64,000 nt of DNA from Myxococcales bacterium (GTDB lineage: Bacteria; Myxococcota_A; Polyangia; Nannocystales; Nannocystaceae), in NCBI GenBank assembly GCA_014240065.1, contig JAAZXR010000003.1, forward strand, positions 62,001 to 126,000, given 5' to 3'. Both the position numbers and the translations under genes were made by a program. Position 1 is the first letter of the stretch. Each line of letters begins with the position of its first letter. Positions 21,049-57,573 of the stretch are shown here, piece after piece. The notes beneath the pieces were generated by a model. It saw only the letters and a list, made by a program, of their open reading frames with translations, was not told the origin of the DNA and did not search any database.

Positions 21049-21987
21049 CTAGCCCGCGACGTGGAGGTGGTCCCCGGGCTCGGCGACCCGATCCGCGAGC
21101 CGCCACACCTCACACGCAGGGACGCGGTCCTCGATCCCGGCCAACAGCTCCTCCATCGAGCAAGCCGCGAGGCGGCCGAGCCCGCGCCCGTCCACCGCGA
21201 TGTGGCCGCGGTGATCGCAGCGCTCGCCCATCCCTCGCGTATGCGAGGCCGCGCAAATCCCCGTGGTCTCAAACTTGAGCGGGTCCACGCGCAGCGTGCC
21301 TGGGCAGCGCGGGCAGCGGTGGCGCTCACTCATCGCGCCCGCGTCGAGCACGGACACCAGCGGGTCACGACCACCCCCCTCGGCGCGGAGGCTCGTCCAC
21401 CGCGAAGAATCGAAGGCGTAGACACCTGGCAGCTCCGCCTCGACACCGAGCATGCTCGCCAACCACGATGCCGCCAGGTAATACGCCGGCGCGCTCTTGT
21501 CCCCCTCGCCACGAGACTCCACGAACAGCGGCGCGTCATCGAAGTGGGGGTCCGCGTCCCATCGCTCCGCCAACGACGCGCGCAGCGCTCCGGCCAGACG
21601 AATCCGCCGACTACCCACGATCACGCGGGTGATCCTGTCGACCAATACGAACGCCACGTTTGAGAGCTTGTCTCTTGGGTCCACGCTCACGTCGCAGACT
21701 TTTAACTTGTCACACGCGATGGTCCCCCGCGAGGTCCGCCACACCGACACCAGCTTGAGCTCGATCGCCGCCTCCCAATCGAGGGCCGCCACAGCGTCGT
21801 GCGCCTCAAGCCCGAGGTGCCACTGCAGCGCGTTTCCATAGCGCCCGCGGGAGGCGTGGGTCCCGAACATCCCCACCGCCGGGCGGAGCGGCAAGCCGAC
21901 AGCGGCGTCGAGGAGCGCATCCAAGTAGGCACACTCCCGCCGCGGCGCGTCCTCCGAGGGCGCGGCGTGCCGGACGGGCAACCGCAC
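21049..21987 (-). CDS. MutH/Sau3AI-like nuclease with zinc ribbon
   Basis: 312 residues, GTG start three bases after the upstream stop. Residues 47-80 (RGRYGNALQWHLGLEAHDA..., then DWEAAIELK) line up with the Escherichia coli MutH core from KGWIGVLLEIWLG through DFAALGVELK with the same spacing: Asp70, Glu76 and Lys78 stand for the catalytic Asp, Glu and Lys of MutH (D70, E77, K79). The residue equivalent to the catalytic Glu56 is Gln55 here. It is followed by CDKLKVCDV. A C-terminal zinc-ribbon-like unit has Cys225, Cys228, Cys245 and Cys257. The protein should be a nuclease or nicking enzyme of DNA; site and strand preference unknown. MutH itself is typical of some gammaproteobacteria, so this is unusual here. 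Confidence 0.65.
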   Translation of the reverse strand: MRLPVRHAAPSEDAPRRECAYLDALLDAAVGLPLRPAVGMFGTHASRGRYGNALQWHLGLEAHDAVAALDWEAAIELKLVSVWRTSRGTIACDKLKVCDVSVDPRDKLSNVAFVLVDRITRVIVGSRRIRLAGALRASLAERWDADPHFDDAPLFVESRGEGDKSAPAYYLAASWLASMLGVEAELPGVYAFDSSRWTSLRAEGGGRDPLVSVLDAGAMSERHRCPRCPGTLRVDPLKFETTGICAASHTRGMGERCDHRGHIAVDGRGLGRLAACSMEELLAGIEDRVPACEVWRLADRVAEPGDHLHVAG

Positions 21988-21990
21988 GAC

Positions 21991-22458
21991 CTACGTGGAC
22001 TCCTCCGAGGGGCTCTCGCGCGGTGGATTCGACGCGACCGCGCGCGCCACGTTGTCTTGGATCTCCGGCGACAGCGGCATCGGCGTCCCCCTCGTGTCCA
22101 CCTGCACAAAGACCAACTCAGCGTCCGTCACGTCGTGCCATCGCTCCACGTCTGTTGACTCGTGGGCGATCACGCGGACGTAGACCTGGATTGAAGTGCG
22201 CCCACAGCCCAAGACGGTGGTGTAACAGCTCACGATATCTCCGACGCGCACCGGCGCCTTGAACTCGACCTCTCGGACCGCCACTGTGACGACGCGGCCG
22301 GCGCCCACTCGATGGGCCCCGATCGCCCCCGCCTGATCGATCAAGCTGAGGATGTGTCCCCCAAAGATCGTGCCGTGCGCGTTCGTATCGCGAGGCATCA
22401 TGCTCACTCGAATCGCTGGGGATCTCGAATAATCTCGAGGATGGAAGTCGCCTGTCAC
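21991..22458 (-). CDS. YciA-type acyl-CoA thioesterase
   Basis: 155 residues. A hotdog-fold thioesterase of the YciA/BFIT type: DTNAHGTIFGGHILSLIDQA is the family's active-site segment, then VAVREVEFKAPVRVGDIVSCY. It hydrolyses acyl-CoA in the cytoplasm. It lies 38 bp after the receiver gene and 3 bp before the MutH-like nuclease gene, so it is translated from the end of the signalling operon. Its link to either neighbour is unclear. Confidence 0.85.
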   Translation of the reverse strand: MTGDFHPRDYSRSPAIRVSMMPRDTNAHGTIFGGHILSLIDQAGAIGAHRVGAGRVVTVAVREVEFKAPVRVGDIVSCYTTVLGCGRTSIQVYVRVIAHESTDVERWHDVTDAELVFVQVDTRGTPMPLSPEIQDNVARAVASNPPRESPSEEST

Positions 22459-22496: not shown

Positions 22497-22985
22497 TCAA
22501 GAGTCGGACCGACCGACGGCCCGCATGATCGCGGCGCGCACTGCCGTGGCGTCGGCGTAGTCCGGGCAGTAGCTGAGCGCGGGATCCCGCGAGGACAGGG
22601 CCTCGAATCGACGCGACTCATGCTCGAAGTCGTACGACAAGACCACCGGCCCCACATACCCCGATTCGCGCAGCGCCCGGAGGATAAACAGCCCCTGGTT
22701 GTCCTCCTGAAACTGCCGGGCGCGCGTGGTGTCTCCATTGAATCTGCTCGACAACGCCACCAGGTCGCCAAACAATAGACTCGGAGCGGTCCTATCAAAC
22801 CGCATGTCGAGGTATACGAGGTCCGGCGGCCGCTCGCGCGCCATGGTGCACGCCTCCGCCCCAGAGTGTGCTTGCGAATAGCCGATCCCCTCGGAGACGA
22901 AGGTCGTCAAATTCGTCAGATACTCGTCGCCATCCTCGACCACGAGCACATGCAGCGCCGGCGCTCGGTATGAGGTCTCAGTCAT
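22497..22985 (-). CDS. stand-alone receiver protein with insertion
   Basis: 162 residues. A receiver domain: VLVVEDGDEYL carries the acidic pair, PPDLVYLDMRF the phospho-acceptor Asp60, and VVLSYDFEHE the strand that normally holds a Ser/Thr switch residue. Between Asp60 and QGLFILRALR (residue 97 onwards) is about 36 residues, some 27 more than a standard receiver. The same insertion occurs in the receiver of the sigma-54 activator two genes upstream (26046-27707). The gene has no output domain, so it may be a phosphate shuttle or sink. GGAG lies seven bases before the ATG; the start overlaps the kinase stop by 8 bp. Confidence 0.8.
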   Translation of the reverse strand: MTETSYRAPALHVLVVEDGDEYLTNLTTFVSEGIGYSQAHSGAEACTMARERPPDLVYLDMRFDRTAPSLLFGDLVALSSRFNGDTTRARQFQEDNQGLFILRALRESGYVGPVVLSYDFEHESRRFEALSSRDPALSYCPDYADATAVRAAIMRAVGRSDS

Positions 22986-25900
22986 CGGTGGTCTCCACGC
23001 AAAAGAACCGTATCACGACCGCCTTCGACCACGTCTCGCGAGGCTCTACGGCGATGGACCCATCATATCTCGAGAGCAGATCTGCGGTGATCCCCATCCC
23101 CCGATCAGCGTACCGACCGCGGAGCATCTCGTTCGTGAGAGGCTCGGGGGAGCGATCCATCATGGAGATCGCGAGCGTCTCCAACGCGGTGATCTCGTCC
23201 AGCTCCCGCGTCAACGAGATCCCAAGCTCGATAGGCCCCTCCGTGTACTTGCGCGAAGACGCGAGCGAGTTGCGGAAGACATTCGCGAGGATGTCGTCGA
23301 GGTCGGTGCGAAAGATCCGAACGCTGGCGATGTCGAGGCCTCCCACGACGAGGCGGGTGTCAAGTCCAACAAACTGCTGCTCTTGAATCACCTCGTGAAA
23401 GATTGACCGGAGCAGCTCACCGTCCACCTCCACCAAGCACCGGCGCTCCACCATTCCGGCGAGCTGCTCCGACGCCTCGCGACCGAGGACCGCGCCGTCG
23501 AGAGCGAGCTGCTGTCCCAGGCGCTTGCGCGCCGCCGCGGACAAGCTCTTTGGAGACCGCACGTCTCGCGCGCGGCGCTTGACGCGACGAAACGCCGTGA
23601 GCATCGGTCCGAACACGGGATCTCTCCGTCGAAGGTTCAGCCGCCTGCCGTGGGTGCGAGCGACCGCCTCCAGATCCTGGCAATAGCCCAAGAACCGCCC
23701 GTAGATCCCTCGACGTTCCATGTCGTGAGGCGCGGCGCCCTCCCCGTCGGGCGCCGGCTCCTCCGCGCCGCCCTCAAATAGACGTCGAAAGAGGGTCGTC
23801 GCGCGCGCGGCCGCGTCGTCTCCCCCGCGGGAGAGATCATGTCCAACGTCCACGAGGAATGATGTGTTGTGCTTGAGGACCTCGTGGCGGATCAGCGAGA
23901 GGATGCGAGCGACCTCCGGCACAGACTTCGGTGCGATCTCGATCACGACCGCCAGAGAGTCTCCTCGATAGCGTCGATACACCAAGGCCCCGCCCCAGGC
24001 CAATAGCGCCAGCAGCAACCCGATCAGCACCCCCGCGATCGACCGCAGGCGCGTCCGCGTTCGCGCCGCGAGCGCCTCAGCCTGCTCCCAATCGAGCTCG
24101 TAGGGGCCGGCCGCGCGGCGATAGAGGTCGAGGTGTCTCGACGCCTCCACCAACCGCAGGCCATCGAACGCCCTGCGCGCCAGCTGATACCGCGCGCGGA
24201 GTGATCCCTGTCGCGCGGCGATCTCCCAGTGTTCGTCCGCGTCGACGCCCGGACCACTGACGATCGCGAGTCGCTCGTGCACCTCGGGCTGCTCAGCGTC
24301 CTGCGTGAGGCTCTCCTCCCAGTACGTCCGCGCGCGGGTCTCATCTCCGAGCGCGAGCGACACCTTCGCCAGCTCATTGAGCAGGGCTGGCACGCCCGGA
24401 TGAGAGGAGCGCGCGTCGAGCAGCAGCCGCTGCGCGCGACGCCAGTCTCCGTACTCGGCGCCGACGACGTAGGCCTCGTCGATGCGTCGCTGCAAATCCG
24501 GGTCGAGGCGCTCAAGCTCTGCCCGCGGAGGCACGGGCGCGGCCTCCATCGGTCCGGGCGCGGTCAACGAACGCTGCAGGTCGCGCAGCGCCTCCCTCGC
24601 GCCGTCGAGCATCGGATCTTCCGGCGGCGCAGCGGCGATGAAACGGCGGAAGTGCGCCTGCGCGGCCTCGCGTTCCTCGGCGCCCTCCTCCCGCGACATC
24701 AGCTCCCCTAAATAGAAATGGAGCTGATACAAGTCCGGCCGCAGGCGCAGCGCGACGCCGAAGTGCTTCTTCGCCAGGTCATCTCTCGCCCCCTTAAACT
24801 CCTTGAAACACACCAGGCCGAGGGCCATGTGCGCGTGGTAGTCGGTGGGCTCCATCACAGTCGCGAGCCGAAGGTGCTCGATCGCCTCCGTCAGACGGCC
24901 CCTCCGCGCGAGGAGCTGCCCGAGCTCATATTGGGCGCGCGGGAACCACGGAGAGGCGTCCACCGCGTTTCGGAGCTCGCGTTCGGCGGCGTCGAAGTCT
25001 CCGCTCGCGGTGGCCTCGCGCCCCCCCTCGTACGCCGCTTGCGCCTCGGGGGTCGGCCTCCCACCCCGGGACTTCGCGAGCTCGGCGATCGAGCGTTGAA
25101 TCTCCAGTTCTTCCACTACCCGCTCGAGCGCCTTCACCCTCGGCTCCTTCGGATACGCAGACAACAGCTGACTGAAGGCGTCGAGGGCGGCGACGTTGTC
25201 GCCCGTGACTCGCGCCACCTCTCCTCGAAGGAACAGAGTCTGGGCCGCCGCGACGACGTTCGCGCGCTCATCGGTCTGCGCCTGCTGCGCGAGAAACCCA
25301 CGGACGCGATCGAGCATCTTGTCGCGGGAGATCCCCTCGAGGCGGCTCGCCTTCCCCCACAGCAAGCCCGCGGCCTCCACATCGATCGACGCTGGCCGCC
25401 CCTGGTCACCGAGGGGAAGCTCCGCGATCTCAAGGGCGATTCGCAGGCGCTCAGCCTCGTATCTATCCCCGCACTTCGCCATCCAACGCAGCACATCGAC
25501 CCGCTCTCGCAACCACAAATTGCGTGGGTCGTAGACCTCAAGTAAGAGCAGGTCCTCGATGGCTCGCTCCGGGCATCCTCCTCCCTTCAAGGAGCTGAAC
25601 CGGGCATGACCGAGGCCACGCAGCACCTGAGGATCATTGTCGTACAAGAGCAACGCCGCCTCGTAGGCGGTGATCGCCTCTCGCCAGCGCTCGTCTGACG
25701 CCGCGCGGCGCCCTTGCAACACCACGCCTTCGAACTCACGAAGACGCTCCCGCTCACGCTCGAGCTCATCGACCTGGCCGGTGTCACCGTCGCTGGTGTT
25801 CTCCGTCGGTGGCTCCCCCTCGCCGTCCGAGTCGGTCACCCCGGCGGGGTCTCGCGACGTGGTGTTCGGAGCCTCTGGATCTGGGAGCCCGCGTGTGGGC

Positions 25901-26049
25901 CACGGTTCTGGCGCCGGCAGCTCCGGGAGCCCCCCTCCAGGCGCCGACGACGGCGGCTCTCCGCGCCCGACCGCTGAGACACCGAGGCCAACGAGCGAAC
26001 AAATCGCGACGCGCAAGATCCTGTGCAGAGGCCGGCGGGCGCGCCTCAC
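22978..26049 (-). CDS. TPR-rich membrane histidine kinase
   Basis: 1023 residues. A signal-anchor N-terminus and a Pro/Gly-rich linker precede about 550 residues of TPR-like repeats (QAAYEGGREATASGDFDAAE, then ELRNAVDASPWFPRAQYELG). One membrane helix follows (IAGVLIGLLLALLAWGGALV, near residue 670). The cytoplasmic end is a histidine kinase: IRHEVLKHNTSFL with His722 as the likely phospho-site, a long linker, then HATPase_c motifs: N-box DDILANVFRNSL near 920, SMMDRSPEPL for G1, and RGMGITADLLSRYDG for G2 near 985. The TPR part would face the periplasm and may sense envelope proteins. It sits between the activator and receiver genes in a tight operon, overlapping both. Confidence 0.85.
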   Translation of the reverse strand: MRRARRPLHRILRVAICSLVGLGVSAVGRGEPPSSAPGGGLPELPAPEPWPTRGLPDPEAPNTTSRDPAGVTDSDGEGEPPTENTSDGDTGQVDELERERERLREFEGVVLQGRRAASDERWREAITAYEAALLLYDNDPQVLRGLGHARFSSLKGGGCPERAIEDLLLLEVYDPRNLWLRERVDVLRWMAKCGDRYEAERLRIALEIAELPLGDQGRPASIDVEAAGLLWGKASRLEGISRDKMLDRVRGFLAQQAQTDERANVVAAAQTLFLRGEVARVTGDNVAALDAFSQLLSAYPKEPRVKALERVVEELEIQRSIAELAKSRGGRPTPEAQAAYEGGREATASGDFDAAERELRNAVDASPWFPRAQYELGQLLARRGRLTEAIEHLRLATVMEPTDYHAHMALGLVCFKEFKGARDDLAKKHFGVALRLRPDLYQLHFYLGELMSREEGAEEREAAQAHFRRFIAAAPPEDPMLDGAREALRDLQRSLTAPGPMEAAPVPPRAELERLDPDLQRRIDEAYVVGAEYGDWRRAQRLLLDARSSHPGVPALLNELAKVSLALGDETRARTYWEESLTQDAEQPEVHERLAIVSGPGVDADEHWEIAARQGSLRARYQLARRAFDGLRLVEASRHLDLYRRAAGPYELDWEQAEALAARTRTRLRSIAGVLIGLLLALLAWGGALVYRRYRGDSLAVVIEIAPKSVPEVARILSLIRHEVLKHNTSFLVDVGHDLSRGGDDAAARATTLFRRLFEGGAEEPAPDGEGAAPHDMERRGIYGRFLGYCQDLEAVARTHGRRLNLRRRDPVFGPMLTAFRRVKRRARDVRSPKSLSAAARKRLGQQLALDGAVLGREASEQLAGMVERRCLVEVDGELLRSIFHEVIQEQQFVGLDTRLVVGGLDIASVRIFRTDLDDILANVFRNSLASSRKYTEGPIELGISLTRELDEITALETLAISMMDRSPEPLTNEMLRGRYADRGMGITADLLSRYDGSIAVEPRETWSKAVVIRFFCVETTDD

Positions 26050-27707
26050 GACCGAACCCTTCGCTGGAGAACTCGAAGCCGAATCCCCAGTTGGTTCATG
26101 CGAAGCTGGACCTTGCGGCCCGCGCTCCCGTCCTCGAGCAGCAGCTCCGCGATCCGATCAAGATCGCCGTCATATTTCAGGTAGAGGCGCTCAAGATACT
26201 GCCGCTCCACATCGCAGCTGACCGCGTTGAGGCTCTCGTGCGCCCGGACGAGCACCTCCACCGCATCTTCGTCGCCTCCCGAGGCGTCCTCTTCGACGGA
26301 GAACCCCCTCAAGAGCTCGACGACGGTCTTCACCGGGAACGGCACGACGTCTGTGCGGATCGTGGCCGCGTTGGCTGAGACAGGGCTCGGAGCGCCCGCG
26401 TCCTCTACCAAGCTCACCAAGGTGAAGGTCACCAAATTGGAGAGCACCATCTCCAGCTGCCGAAAATTCCCGGGCCACTCGAACTCGCGCAAGCTCCCCG
26501 CGCTGCTCTTGTGCAGCAGGAATGTGAGTCGCCCTGGCTGCGCCGCCCCGGGCTTTTGGGTGACCACAGCCACCTCGAGGCCGTCCTCGCCGCTGGAGAG
26601 CCCGTGTCTGTGCGCGTACCTGGCGAGCAGGTCCTTGTTGTAGCCGTGGGCGCACACCCGCCGCAGGAAGTAGGCCAAGAGCTCCTCGAAGTCGTCCTTC
26701 CTGTCCCGTAAGCTCGGGAGACGCACCGCGGTCGCCGGGTTGAGCCGCATGAGCAGATCCTCGCGAAATCTCCCGTCGCGCACCATTAAGCCCAGGTCCT
26801 CGTTGGTGGCCACGACCAACTTCACGTCCGAGGAGTGCTCCTCCACCGATCCCACGGGCCGATACTTGTGGTCTTGCAAGACCAGCAGCAGCGACTTTTG
26901 AAGTTCGAGGCTGAGGTTACCTATCTCGTCCAAGAACAGGGTCCCGCCCTTGGCCCGCTCGATCACCCCTTCGCGATTTGCGGTGGCCCCGGTGTACGCG
27001 CCCTTGACCACGCCGAACAGGTGCGCCGCCATCAGCGACTCAGGCAGGGTCGAGAGATCCACGGCCACAAAATCACCGCTCCTGCCGGAGCGACGGTGGA
27101 TATGCTCGCGCGCGAGCAGGCTCTTTCCTGATCCGGTCGGGCCCGTGAGAATCAGCGGGAGCTGCCCTCGCGCGAGCACGCTCAAGCGCTGGCGGAGGCT
27201 CCGCATGACCCGCGTCGTGCCCCAATAGAAGGTCTCATCCTCCCTCGAGTCTTCTCGCTGCCTGAGGATCGACTGCACCTGTACGCGCAGCGCTCGCGCG
27301 TCGAGGTACTCGTCATCGAGGAGGTAGGTGTAGTCCTCGGCGTCCAAGCGCTCGGCGTCCAGCCCGATCGGCAGGTCCTCAACGGAGGTCATCACGACCA
27401 CCGGGAGATCCGGATAACCGGGCCGCAGGGCCTCAAGGATCTTGAACCCCTGGGTCCGTCGGAGTCGCTCTGTCACCTCGCGCTGGCTCCCCTTCAGGCC
27501 CGATTTGTCCGCCGGCAGCAGCTCCGCCTCCTCGATATTGAAATGGACGTCGAGCAACACCAGCTCGATCGGAACGGGAGACGACGCGAGACGCTCTTTC
27601 GCCTCGCGGAAGTTCCGGGCGGGTGGCACAAAGGTGTGCTCGGAGAGGTGCCTCTCGCACAGCTCGAGGTAGGTGTCTTCGTCGTCGATGATGAGGATAT
27701 TCGCCAT
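26046..27707 (-). CDS. sigma-54 activator with atypical receiver
   Basis: 553 residues from ATG 27707. The N-terminal receiver has acidic IIDDEDTYL, phospho-Asp53 in LVLLDVHF, and then a 32-residue stretch before QGFKILEALR, a larger loop than normal. The AAA+ domain is complete: GPTGSGKS (189-196), GAYTGA (236-241) for sigma-54 contact, GGTLFLDE (254-261) for Walker B, and RFREDLLMRLN near the arginine finger. A Fis-like HTH ends the protein (YDGDLDRIAELLLED, then MNQLGIRL). It activates sigma-54 promoters, and rpoN is in the same window. Target genes are unknown. Start overlap with the kinase (ATGA) and a 2-bp gap from the upstream gene mean tight coupling. Confidence 0.9.
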   Translation of the reverse strand: MANILIIDDEDTYLELCERHLSEHTFVPPARNFREAKERLASSPVPIELVLLDVHFNIEEAELLPADKSGLKGSQREVTERLRRTQGFKILEALRPGYPDLPVVVMTSVEDLPIGLDAERLDAEDYTYLLDDEYLDARALRVQVQSILRQREDSREDETFYWGTTRVMRSLRQRLSVLARGQLPLILTGPTGSGKSLLAREHIHRRSGRSGDFVAVDLSTLPESLMAAHLFGVVKGAYTGATANREGVIERAKGGTLFLDEIGNLSLELQKSLLLVLQDHKYRPVGSVEEHSSDVKLVVATNEDLGLMVRDGRFREDLLMRLNPATAVRLPSLRDRKDDFEELLAYFLRRVCAHGYNKDLLARYAHRHGLSSGEDGLEVAVVTQKPGAAQPGRLTFLLHKSSAGSLREFEWPGNFRQLEMVLSNLVTFTLVSLVEDAGAPSPVSANAATIRTDVVPFPVKTVVELLRGFSVEEDASGGDEDAVEVLVRAHESLNAVSCDVERQYLERLYLKYDGDLDRIAELLLEDGSAGRKVQLRMNQLGIRLRVLQRRVRS

Positions 27708-27709
27708 GA

Positions 27710-28132
27710 CTAGCCCCGCCGCGCCCGTTGAACGAGCTCGCGCAAGGACGCGCGAATCTCCCGCTGTGCCGCCAGCATGCGCATCCGAACCTCTTGATCG
27801 TCGAGCGCCGCTCCCGAGGTGAGCCGCTCGCCGAGCGACTCCATCCAGCGCACGTGCGCCTCGATGCGCCCGAGTTCTGGCGCCGACTGCTCGCGCTCCG
27901 CGGCGGTCATCCCTTCGACGCCAGCCTCGTAGATGACCCACGCCGGCCACCGGACCCCATCCCGCGTGGTGCGAGTGCCCAAGATGTCCCGCTGCACGGC
28001 GGCCGTGAGACGCGCGCTCCCGTCGCGCCATTCATCGTCGTCAAGGTTCGCGCTTTGCCACGCGACATACTTGCCGAGATCGTGTTTGAGCGACATGAGC
28101 CGCTCGGTCAGACTGCTCGAAAAACCTCCCAT
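27710..28132 (-). CDS. small H-box-like protein of the signalling operon
   Basis: 140 residues from ATG 28132 (ATG 28096 is an alternative). Helical and charged. The stretch LMSLKHDLGKYVAWQSANL places a His-Asp in a helix and resembles the kinase segment SLIRHEVLKHNTSFL in the same operon (position of His722), so this may be a stand-alone phosphotransfer or dimerisation four-helix bundle. This is inference from a short match. It lies between the winged-helix gene and the sigma-54 activator gene, starting 2 bp before the latter. No signal peptide or membrane helix. Confidence 0.5.
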   Translation of the reverse strand: MGGFSSSLTERLMSLKHDLGKYVAWQSANLDDDEWRDGSARLTAAVQRDILGTRTTRDGVRWPAWVIYEAGVEGMTAAEREQSAPELGRIEAHVRWMESLGERLTSGAALDDQEVRMRMLAAQREIRASLRELVQRARRG

Positions 28133-28176: not shown

Positions 28177-28611
28177 CTAGGGTGCGAGGTGATACCGAGT
28201 CCCGCGGGCGCGCCCGGTCGTGGTCACCTTGCCGACATCTTTCATCCACGAGAGATACCCTCGGAGCTCGTCGAGGTCGATGTTGAGGTCTTTGCTGAGT
28301 TGGCCAATGGTCCGAGGCTCCTCCGCGACAGCTTGCAGGATCGCGACGAACATCGCCCCCTCCACCGAGTCCTCGTCGGCGGATTCATCCATCTCAACAC
28401 GGACGGGCCGGCTCGACATTTTGTTCCCGAGGGCTTCCGTAATTTCCGCGAGATTCAACGCGCGGACCATGGGGCCCGCCTCGCTCGCGAGCAATTCCCC
28501 GATGGTCATGCTCGCTGGCATCTGCTCCAGCGTTCGTTGCGCCGCTTGCCGCAGACGAGATGTCTGCGTGTTTTGAAGGGCCGACTCAAAAAGTTGTGCG
28601 ATCTGAGACAT
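28177..28611 (-). CDS. winged-helix-like regulatory protein
   Basis: 144 residues, ATG 28611. The C-terminal half reads as a winged helix: MFVAILQAVAEEPRTIGQLSKDLNIDLDELRGYLSWMKDVGKVTTTG, with a recognition helix and short wing (TTGRARGTRYHL). The N-terminal 70 residues are helical with no recognised motif. It is the first gene of the operon that runs to the receiver, thioesterase and nuclease genes. It may bind DNA or an RNA polymerase partner and could control its own operon. No family name is certain. Confidence 0.6.
   Translation of the reverse strand: MSQIAQLFESALQNTQTSRLRQAAQRTLEQMPASMTIGELLASEAGPMVRALNLAEITEALGNKMSSRPVRVEMDESADEDSVEGAMFVAILQAVAEEPRTIGQLSKDLNIDLDELRGYLSWMKDVGKVTTTGRARGTRYHLAP

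Positions 28612-56094: not shown

Positions 56095-57573
<1,479 letters not shown>

Follow-up and report, generated by a model that had tools for sequence, protein, structure and literature searches.

A conserved four-gene signalling module of Myxococcota whose two receiver domains share an insert beside the phospho-aspartate and lack the active-site lysine

The window analysed here is a stretch of 64,000 nucleotides from a Myxococcales bacterium (GenBank assembly GCA_014240065.1, contig JAAZXR010000003.1, positions 62,001 to 126,000). It contains a conserved unit of four genes encoding a small protein with an HDL[GA][KR] motif, a sigma54 activator, a TPR histidine kinase and a stand-alone receiver, with the kinase gene lying between the two receiver genes. 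The features of the locus, in window coordinates, are as follows.

27710..28132, minus strand: small HPT-like protein of 140 aa with KHDLGKY, first of the four conserved genes (upstream of the activator in 56/58 loci)
26046..27707, minus strand: sigma54 activator, a loop-bearing receiver (residues 1-150) and an AAA+ domain with GAYTGA (PF00158, E 7.3e-51)
27549..27551, minus strand: codon of phospho-Asp53, activator receiver (invariant in 58/58 orthologues)
27453..27548, minus strand: enlarged beta3-alpha3 segment, activator residues 54-85 (translation, orthologue alignment, model)
22978..26049, minus strand: TPR histidine kinase of 1023 aa, with one clear transmembrane helix at about residues 671-690 after the TPR region (TPR matches, hydropathy)
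22981..23994, minus strand: cytoplasmic region of the kinase with H-box RHEVLKHNT (His722), N-box, D and GxG (motif conservation, NtrB profile match)
22497..22985, minus strand: stand-alone receiver of 162 aa (receiver fold, model pLDDT 95.4)
22806..22808, minus strand: codon of phospho-Asp60, stand-alone receiver (invariant in 80/80 orthologues)
22698..22805, minus strand: enlarged beta3-alpha3 segment, stand-alone receiver residues 61-96, with helices 75-81 and 86-95 (translation, alignment, model)
28177-28611: winged-helix-like gene upstream of the module, its place kept in the window's own family only
21991-22458 and 21049-21987: 4HBT thioesterase and a 312-aa protein without a Pfam match, downstream, their place kept in the window's own family only

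The initial annotation had reported that both receivers possess an enlarged loop after the phospho-Asp. Its residue counts were confirmed from the translations, with 32 residues found between Asp53 (LLD53) and Gln86 (Q86-GFKILEALR) of the activator, and 36 between Asp60 (YLD60) and Gln97 (Q97-GLFILRALR) of the stand-alone receiver. The contrast that it drew with normal receivers also held, though its baseline of about 8 residues was slightly too high. Among 60 other receivers of the same genome the spacing, counted in residues from the Asp column to the alpha3 Gly column with both excluded, was 7 in 57, 8 in two and 9 in one, compared to 35-37 in stand-alone receiver orthologues (n=80) and 25-36 in activator orthologues (n=58). 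The similarity of the flanks was borne out as well, D-x-x-F ... Q-G being present in 58/58 activator and 80/81 stand-alone receiver orthologues. When receivers of the host genome were compared to the activator-receiver profile, an end-to-end match was obtained for these two only, with the others matching by one flank. The enlarged loop is neither a product of chance nor an artefact. Residues of the stand-alone receiver insert such as R62, F63, D64, R65, G73 and G84 matched the active site in their invariance. Towards their tails the inserts of the two families resemble each other less, and the tails vary in length by clade.

Two further observations concern individual receivers. The stand-alone receiver of Nannocystis pusilla Na p29 (L189) is split over two frames, broken inside the insert, by an apparent frameshift in the assembly; it is the one orthologue of the 81 in which the D-x-x-F ... 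Q-G pattern is incomplete. Additionally, the activator receivers of some other families carry another insert of approximately 20 residues with several Cys between beta1 and beta2 (e.g. CDRRIPCQVCEERTRGCPL), seen at L103, L104, L105, L107 and L109 and also in the activator N-termini of L100-L102, which is possibly a metal site.

AlphaFold2 models placed the insert between beta3 and alpha3 in both receivers. In the activator (receiver pLDDT 88) it was predicted to begin with an extended stretch and a 3-residue helix, after which a long helix (75-94) continues into alpha3. That of the stand-alone receiver was predicted to start in the same way and to go on with helices 75-81 and 86-95, ahead of alpha3 at 97-107, with pLDDT of about 98 throughout. 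The predicted folds are thus not identical, helix 75-81 being additional in the stand-alone receiver, but the inserts occupy the same place, and the models gave no sign of the different positions or unrelated folds that would have told against the shared loop. Both models matched solved receivers of the (beta-alpha)5 fold over 120-125 residues, with Z up to 15.4 and 16.6. The fold searches listed ordinary receivers. Their alignments took in about 120 of 162 residues for the stand-alone receiver and at most 125 of 156 for the activator receiver, the latter having NtrX and LuxO as its best structural matches. PF00072 scores were 23.1 and 25.8 bits, below the gathering cut-off of 30.2; the insert splits the match in both proteins, and one flank only is covered. 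Searches of Pfam and NCBIfam with single sequences likewise returned partial receiver matches and no insert-bearing family. Profile matches to PDB sequences stop at the insert, so that none of the solved receivers was observed to have it, which is not proof of its absence from all structures.

A common ancestor of the two receivers, also suggested in the initial annotation, is well supported by sequence comparison. Comparison of the two family profiles gave an E value of 3.9e-22 with the starts of the inserts aligned (LDMRFDR-P---LLGD with LDVHFD-IP---LLP). A comparison restricted to the insert scored 26.6 (E 6.5e-7), while 100 column-shuffled controls reached a maximum of 17.6 (0/100 as high), and the similarity covered roughly the first 17 residues of the insert. 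In a maximum-likelihood tree from which the insert columns were excluded, the two families formed one clade (SH-aLRT 98) apart from the 60 ordinary receivers. This tree was built from 115 columns by a quick search with its other forks poorly resolved, and long-branch attraction could conceivably have produced the clade. An independent origin of the inserts in two unrelated receivers, alike by chance, would be in keeping with the few columns and long branches of the tree and with the differing length and helix content of the C-terminal halves of the inserts. Such an origin is very improbable, and is largely refuted by the loop-only similarity that exceeds 100/100 shuffles, by the single clade recovered without loop columns, by the full-length profile match and by the loss of the same active-site Lys in both families. 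The two receivers are paralogues, and their inserts between beta3 and alpha3 go back to a single ancestral one.

The 1023-aa protein encoded between the receiver genes is a divergent membrane histidine kinase. An H-box of the RHE[VI]LKHN type was found in 76/76 loci (one reads GHE and a few differ at the last position), and the N-box, Asp and GxG residues are invariant among kinase orthologues. The H-box His is accompanied by a HATPase_c domain, which was matched by 30/53 orthologues (best E 1.9e-8), the window copy alone falling below threshold. The best PDB profile match of the kinase region was the ATPase domain of NtrB (E 0.0029). Because a hydrophobic N-terminal segment precedes the TPR region, this region is probably periplasmic.

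The initial annotation had missed that the conserved unit has four genes, the only ones found to remain together across three Myxococcota clades. Among the 80 loci examined from the species collection the kinase adjoins the stand-alone receiver in 73/77 testable loci, and the activator does so in 57/61. In the four loci where the receiver is unlinked (L140, L144, L145 and L163) the kinase was identified elsewhere in the genome in 4/4 cases (E below 1e-91), and three of these genomes were also found to have a full-length activator receiver. Among 98 related genomes the kinase was present in 47. Counting the activator by strong, loop-spanning matches, 45 of the 98 possess both genes and 50 lack both (Fisher p 2.6e-24, a value inflated by relatedness); the other 3 are discordant, a contig cut inside the kinase gene accounting for one. 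Clustering of neighbouring genes in three Myxococcota clades showed the activator, kinase and receiver to be common to all, with the small protein falling into a separate cluster for each clade but at the same position. Genes flanking the module are clade-specific and gave no pointer to the regulated process.

Across the phylum, the stand-alone receiver family was identified in 79/284 sampled genomes, in one copy. One genome (G084, loci L088 and L102) harbours two complete and divergent sets of activator, kinase and receiver. An occurrence of the module outside Myxococcota was considered and rejected, as the matches titled Klebsiella pneumoniae, Rhodobacterales and Oligoflexia (L161, L188, L190, L155 and L182) are metagenome bins that encode the module under titles that are probably wrong.

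Receivers rank among the most numerous domains of bacteria, and almost all have the Asp-Thr-Lys site, the active-site Lys binding the phosphoryl group. This Lys, whose loss the initial annotation had overlooked, was found in 58/60 ordinary receivers of the same genome but in 0/138 loop-bearing receivers, in which its position is mostly occupied by Asp or Glu. The Thr/Ser at the end of beta4 is kept in the activators (58/58), whereas the stand-alone receivers have Tyr or His in 78/80. The phospho-Asp is invariant in both families (80/80 and 58/58) and the acidic pair is kept in both, except for one gapped row. Pseudo-receivers have been defined as receivers missing at least one of five active-site residues, and many of them do not work by phosphorylation (PMC12632262). 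Both receivers of the module fall under this definition because they are missing the Lys and, for the stand-alone receiver, also the Thr/Ser; judged by their sequences, they are pseudo-receivers of a kind that retains the metal site and the phospho-acceptor. They differ from those described in this retention, in the obligate co-conservation of a kinase and in the long ordered beta3-alpha3 insert.

These losses raise the question of signalling that is independent of phosphorylation, in which the two pseudo-receivers would act through binding to the kinase, to the small protein or to a ligand, with the insert replacing the chemical switch. The absence of Lys from 138/138 loop-bearing receivers and of Thr/Ser from the stand-alone family would agree with this, as would the ligand binding described for pseudo-receivers around the beta3-alpha3 loop and alpha3 (PMC12632262). 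However, the phospho-Asp and acidic pair are retained in essentially every orthologue, and the module is never without a kinase whose H-box and ATP-site motifs are conserved, which makes this explanation quite improbable.

The gene for the small protein lies directly upstream of the activator in 56/58 loci, one of the exceptions being due to a contig end. Of these 56 copies, 45 were found by motif and 11 by profile. HDL[GA][KR] was present in 56/56, with HDF in place of HDL in one. The invariance seen in the alignment of the small protein (A5) is partly built in, since its rows were chosen by motif, and the 11 copies found by profile serve as the independent test. His17 of KHDLGKY is a candidate phosphotransfer His. 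No relative of the small protein was found in Pfam or PDB, and comparison to HPt, Spo0B and kinase H-box domains detected no relation beyond the short motif. Homology to the kinase H-box region was tried and rejected: the match beat shuffles but was no better than that of a control profile made from the stand-alone receiver, so that the resemblance is suggestive only.

The activator possesses the PF00158 AAA+ domain together with a GAFTGA-type motif (read as GAYTGA), as in NtrC-type activators. It resembles NtrC, NtrX and LuxO in having a receiver followed by this domain, but differs from them in the insert after the phospho-Asp and in the missing active-site Lys. A possible further difference is that no Pfam HTH (HTH_8) was matched in the window activator or in three orthologues, although the C-terminus looks Fis-like by eye. 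The gene for sigma54, rpoN, was identified at 56104-56580 of the window (Sigma54_DBD, E 1.7e-64), about 28 kb from the module. A -24/-12 sigma54 promoter was sought in the window and none was found.

Since an obligate set of four proteins bears His, Asp, His and Asp, a relay is the simplest reading of the module. It is tentatively suggested, with a probability of about 0.42, that the four proteins form a self-contained His-Asp module, perhaps a Spo0-like relay that runs from kinase to stand-alone receiver to small protein to activator. The membrane kinase with its TPR sensor region would autophosphorylate on His722 of the RHEVLKHNT box, from which the phosphoryl group would pass to Asp60 of the stand-alone receiver and then, probably via His17 of the small protein, to Asp53 of the activator. 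The phosphorylated activator would then open its target promoters. Lying adjacent to the phospho-Asp, the shared insert would be a natural docking element in such a relay, most likely as a module-specific surface for the His-bearing partner or partners, in an active site remodelled by the Lys loss, and it may also take over some of the chemistry for which the Lys is normally needed. The homology and position of the inserts, the retained Asp and acidic pair, the Lys loss, the kinase motifs and the co-conservation of the four genes are observations; from them we infer phosphotransfer and its order, a phosphotransferase role for the small protein and the recognition of a partner by the loop. The special phosphotransfer partner envisaged in the initial annotation fits the finding that one unusual histidine kinase and a small HDxxK protein are conserved along with the receivers, while its recognition of the loop is conjectural.

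Points in favour of the relay are the retained phospho-Asp and acidic pair, the motifs of the kinase and of the small protein, the co-conservation of the components, the invariant residues of the insert and the presence of rpoN in the window. Against it are the loss of Lys in both receivers and of Thr/Ser in the stand-alone receiver, the failure of the window kinase by itself to reach the HATPase_c threshold, and the small protein, for which no relation to HPt, Spo0B or kinase H-box domains was detected beyond a short motif. A broader version, in which the relay would be Myxococcota-wide and both receivers would use a remodelled active site, with an acid replacing the Lys, an ordered insert that docks and perhaps catalyses, and the small proteins forming a new family of stand-alone HDxxK phosphotransferases, is considered rather doubtful.

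The Spo0 phosphorelay of Bacillus consists of KinA, Spo0F, Spo0B and Spo0A. As in Spo0, the module comprises four separate proteins, namely a membrane or soluble kinase, a single-domain receiver, a small His protein and a receiver-bearing transcription regulator, so that a Spo0-type set of components is found in one obligate group, the correspondence being one of architecture only. The two differ in that the putative relay here would end in a sigma54 AAA+ activator, that the insert is present and the Lys missing in both receivers, and that no sequence relation to Spo0B was seen in the small protein.

The same genes could also form a branched system, in which the kinase would phosphorylate the activator directly, the stand-alone receiver would be a phosphate sink or a feedback competitor for one partner surface, and the small protein would be a phosphatase, adaptor or dimerisation factor. 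Having the same kind of insert, both receivers could bind the same partner, and the small protein is itself no more than a putative phosphotransferase. A precedent is the phospho-sink single receiver NmpT, which is encoded beside an NtrC-like regulator in the NmpRSTU system of Myxococcus xanthus (PMC6211767). A branched system would nevertheless offer no obvious use for the small protein's conserved His-Asp-Leu-x-Lys helix, and it is regarded as fairly unlikely. NmpRSTU is similar to the module in belonging to the same phylum and in combining several components, among them kinase(s), one single receiver and a regulator of the NtrC-like kind; it differs in its hybrid kinase and protoglobin sensor, and its abstract mentions no small HDxxK protein (PMC6211767).

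The receiver, the kinase and the NtrC-type activator are known kinds of parts. For the receiver variant (insert and Lys loss), the HDxxK family and the four-gene module, no earlier description was found in the available literature; no account of the system was met in open-access publications, where absence is no proof. Plesiocystis pacifica carries the module (L132), and a survey of myxobacterial two-component systems that includes this species does not describe it in the portion available (PMC4603909).

The module is of interest for its receivers. A phylum-wide lineage in which the Asp and metal-binding acids are kept, the Lys is always absent, an ordered insert adjoins the Asp and the tie to one kinase persists constitutes a natural experiment on which parts of the active site are dispensable. 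It is equally an experiment on the insulation of one pathway against about 75 other receivers of the same cell. Should the small HDxxK protein prove to be a phosphotransferase, the module would represent another phosphorelay that was assembled independently, and one that offers four clear residues for mutation.
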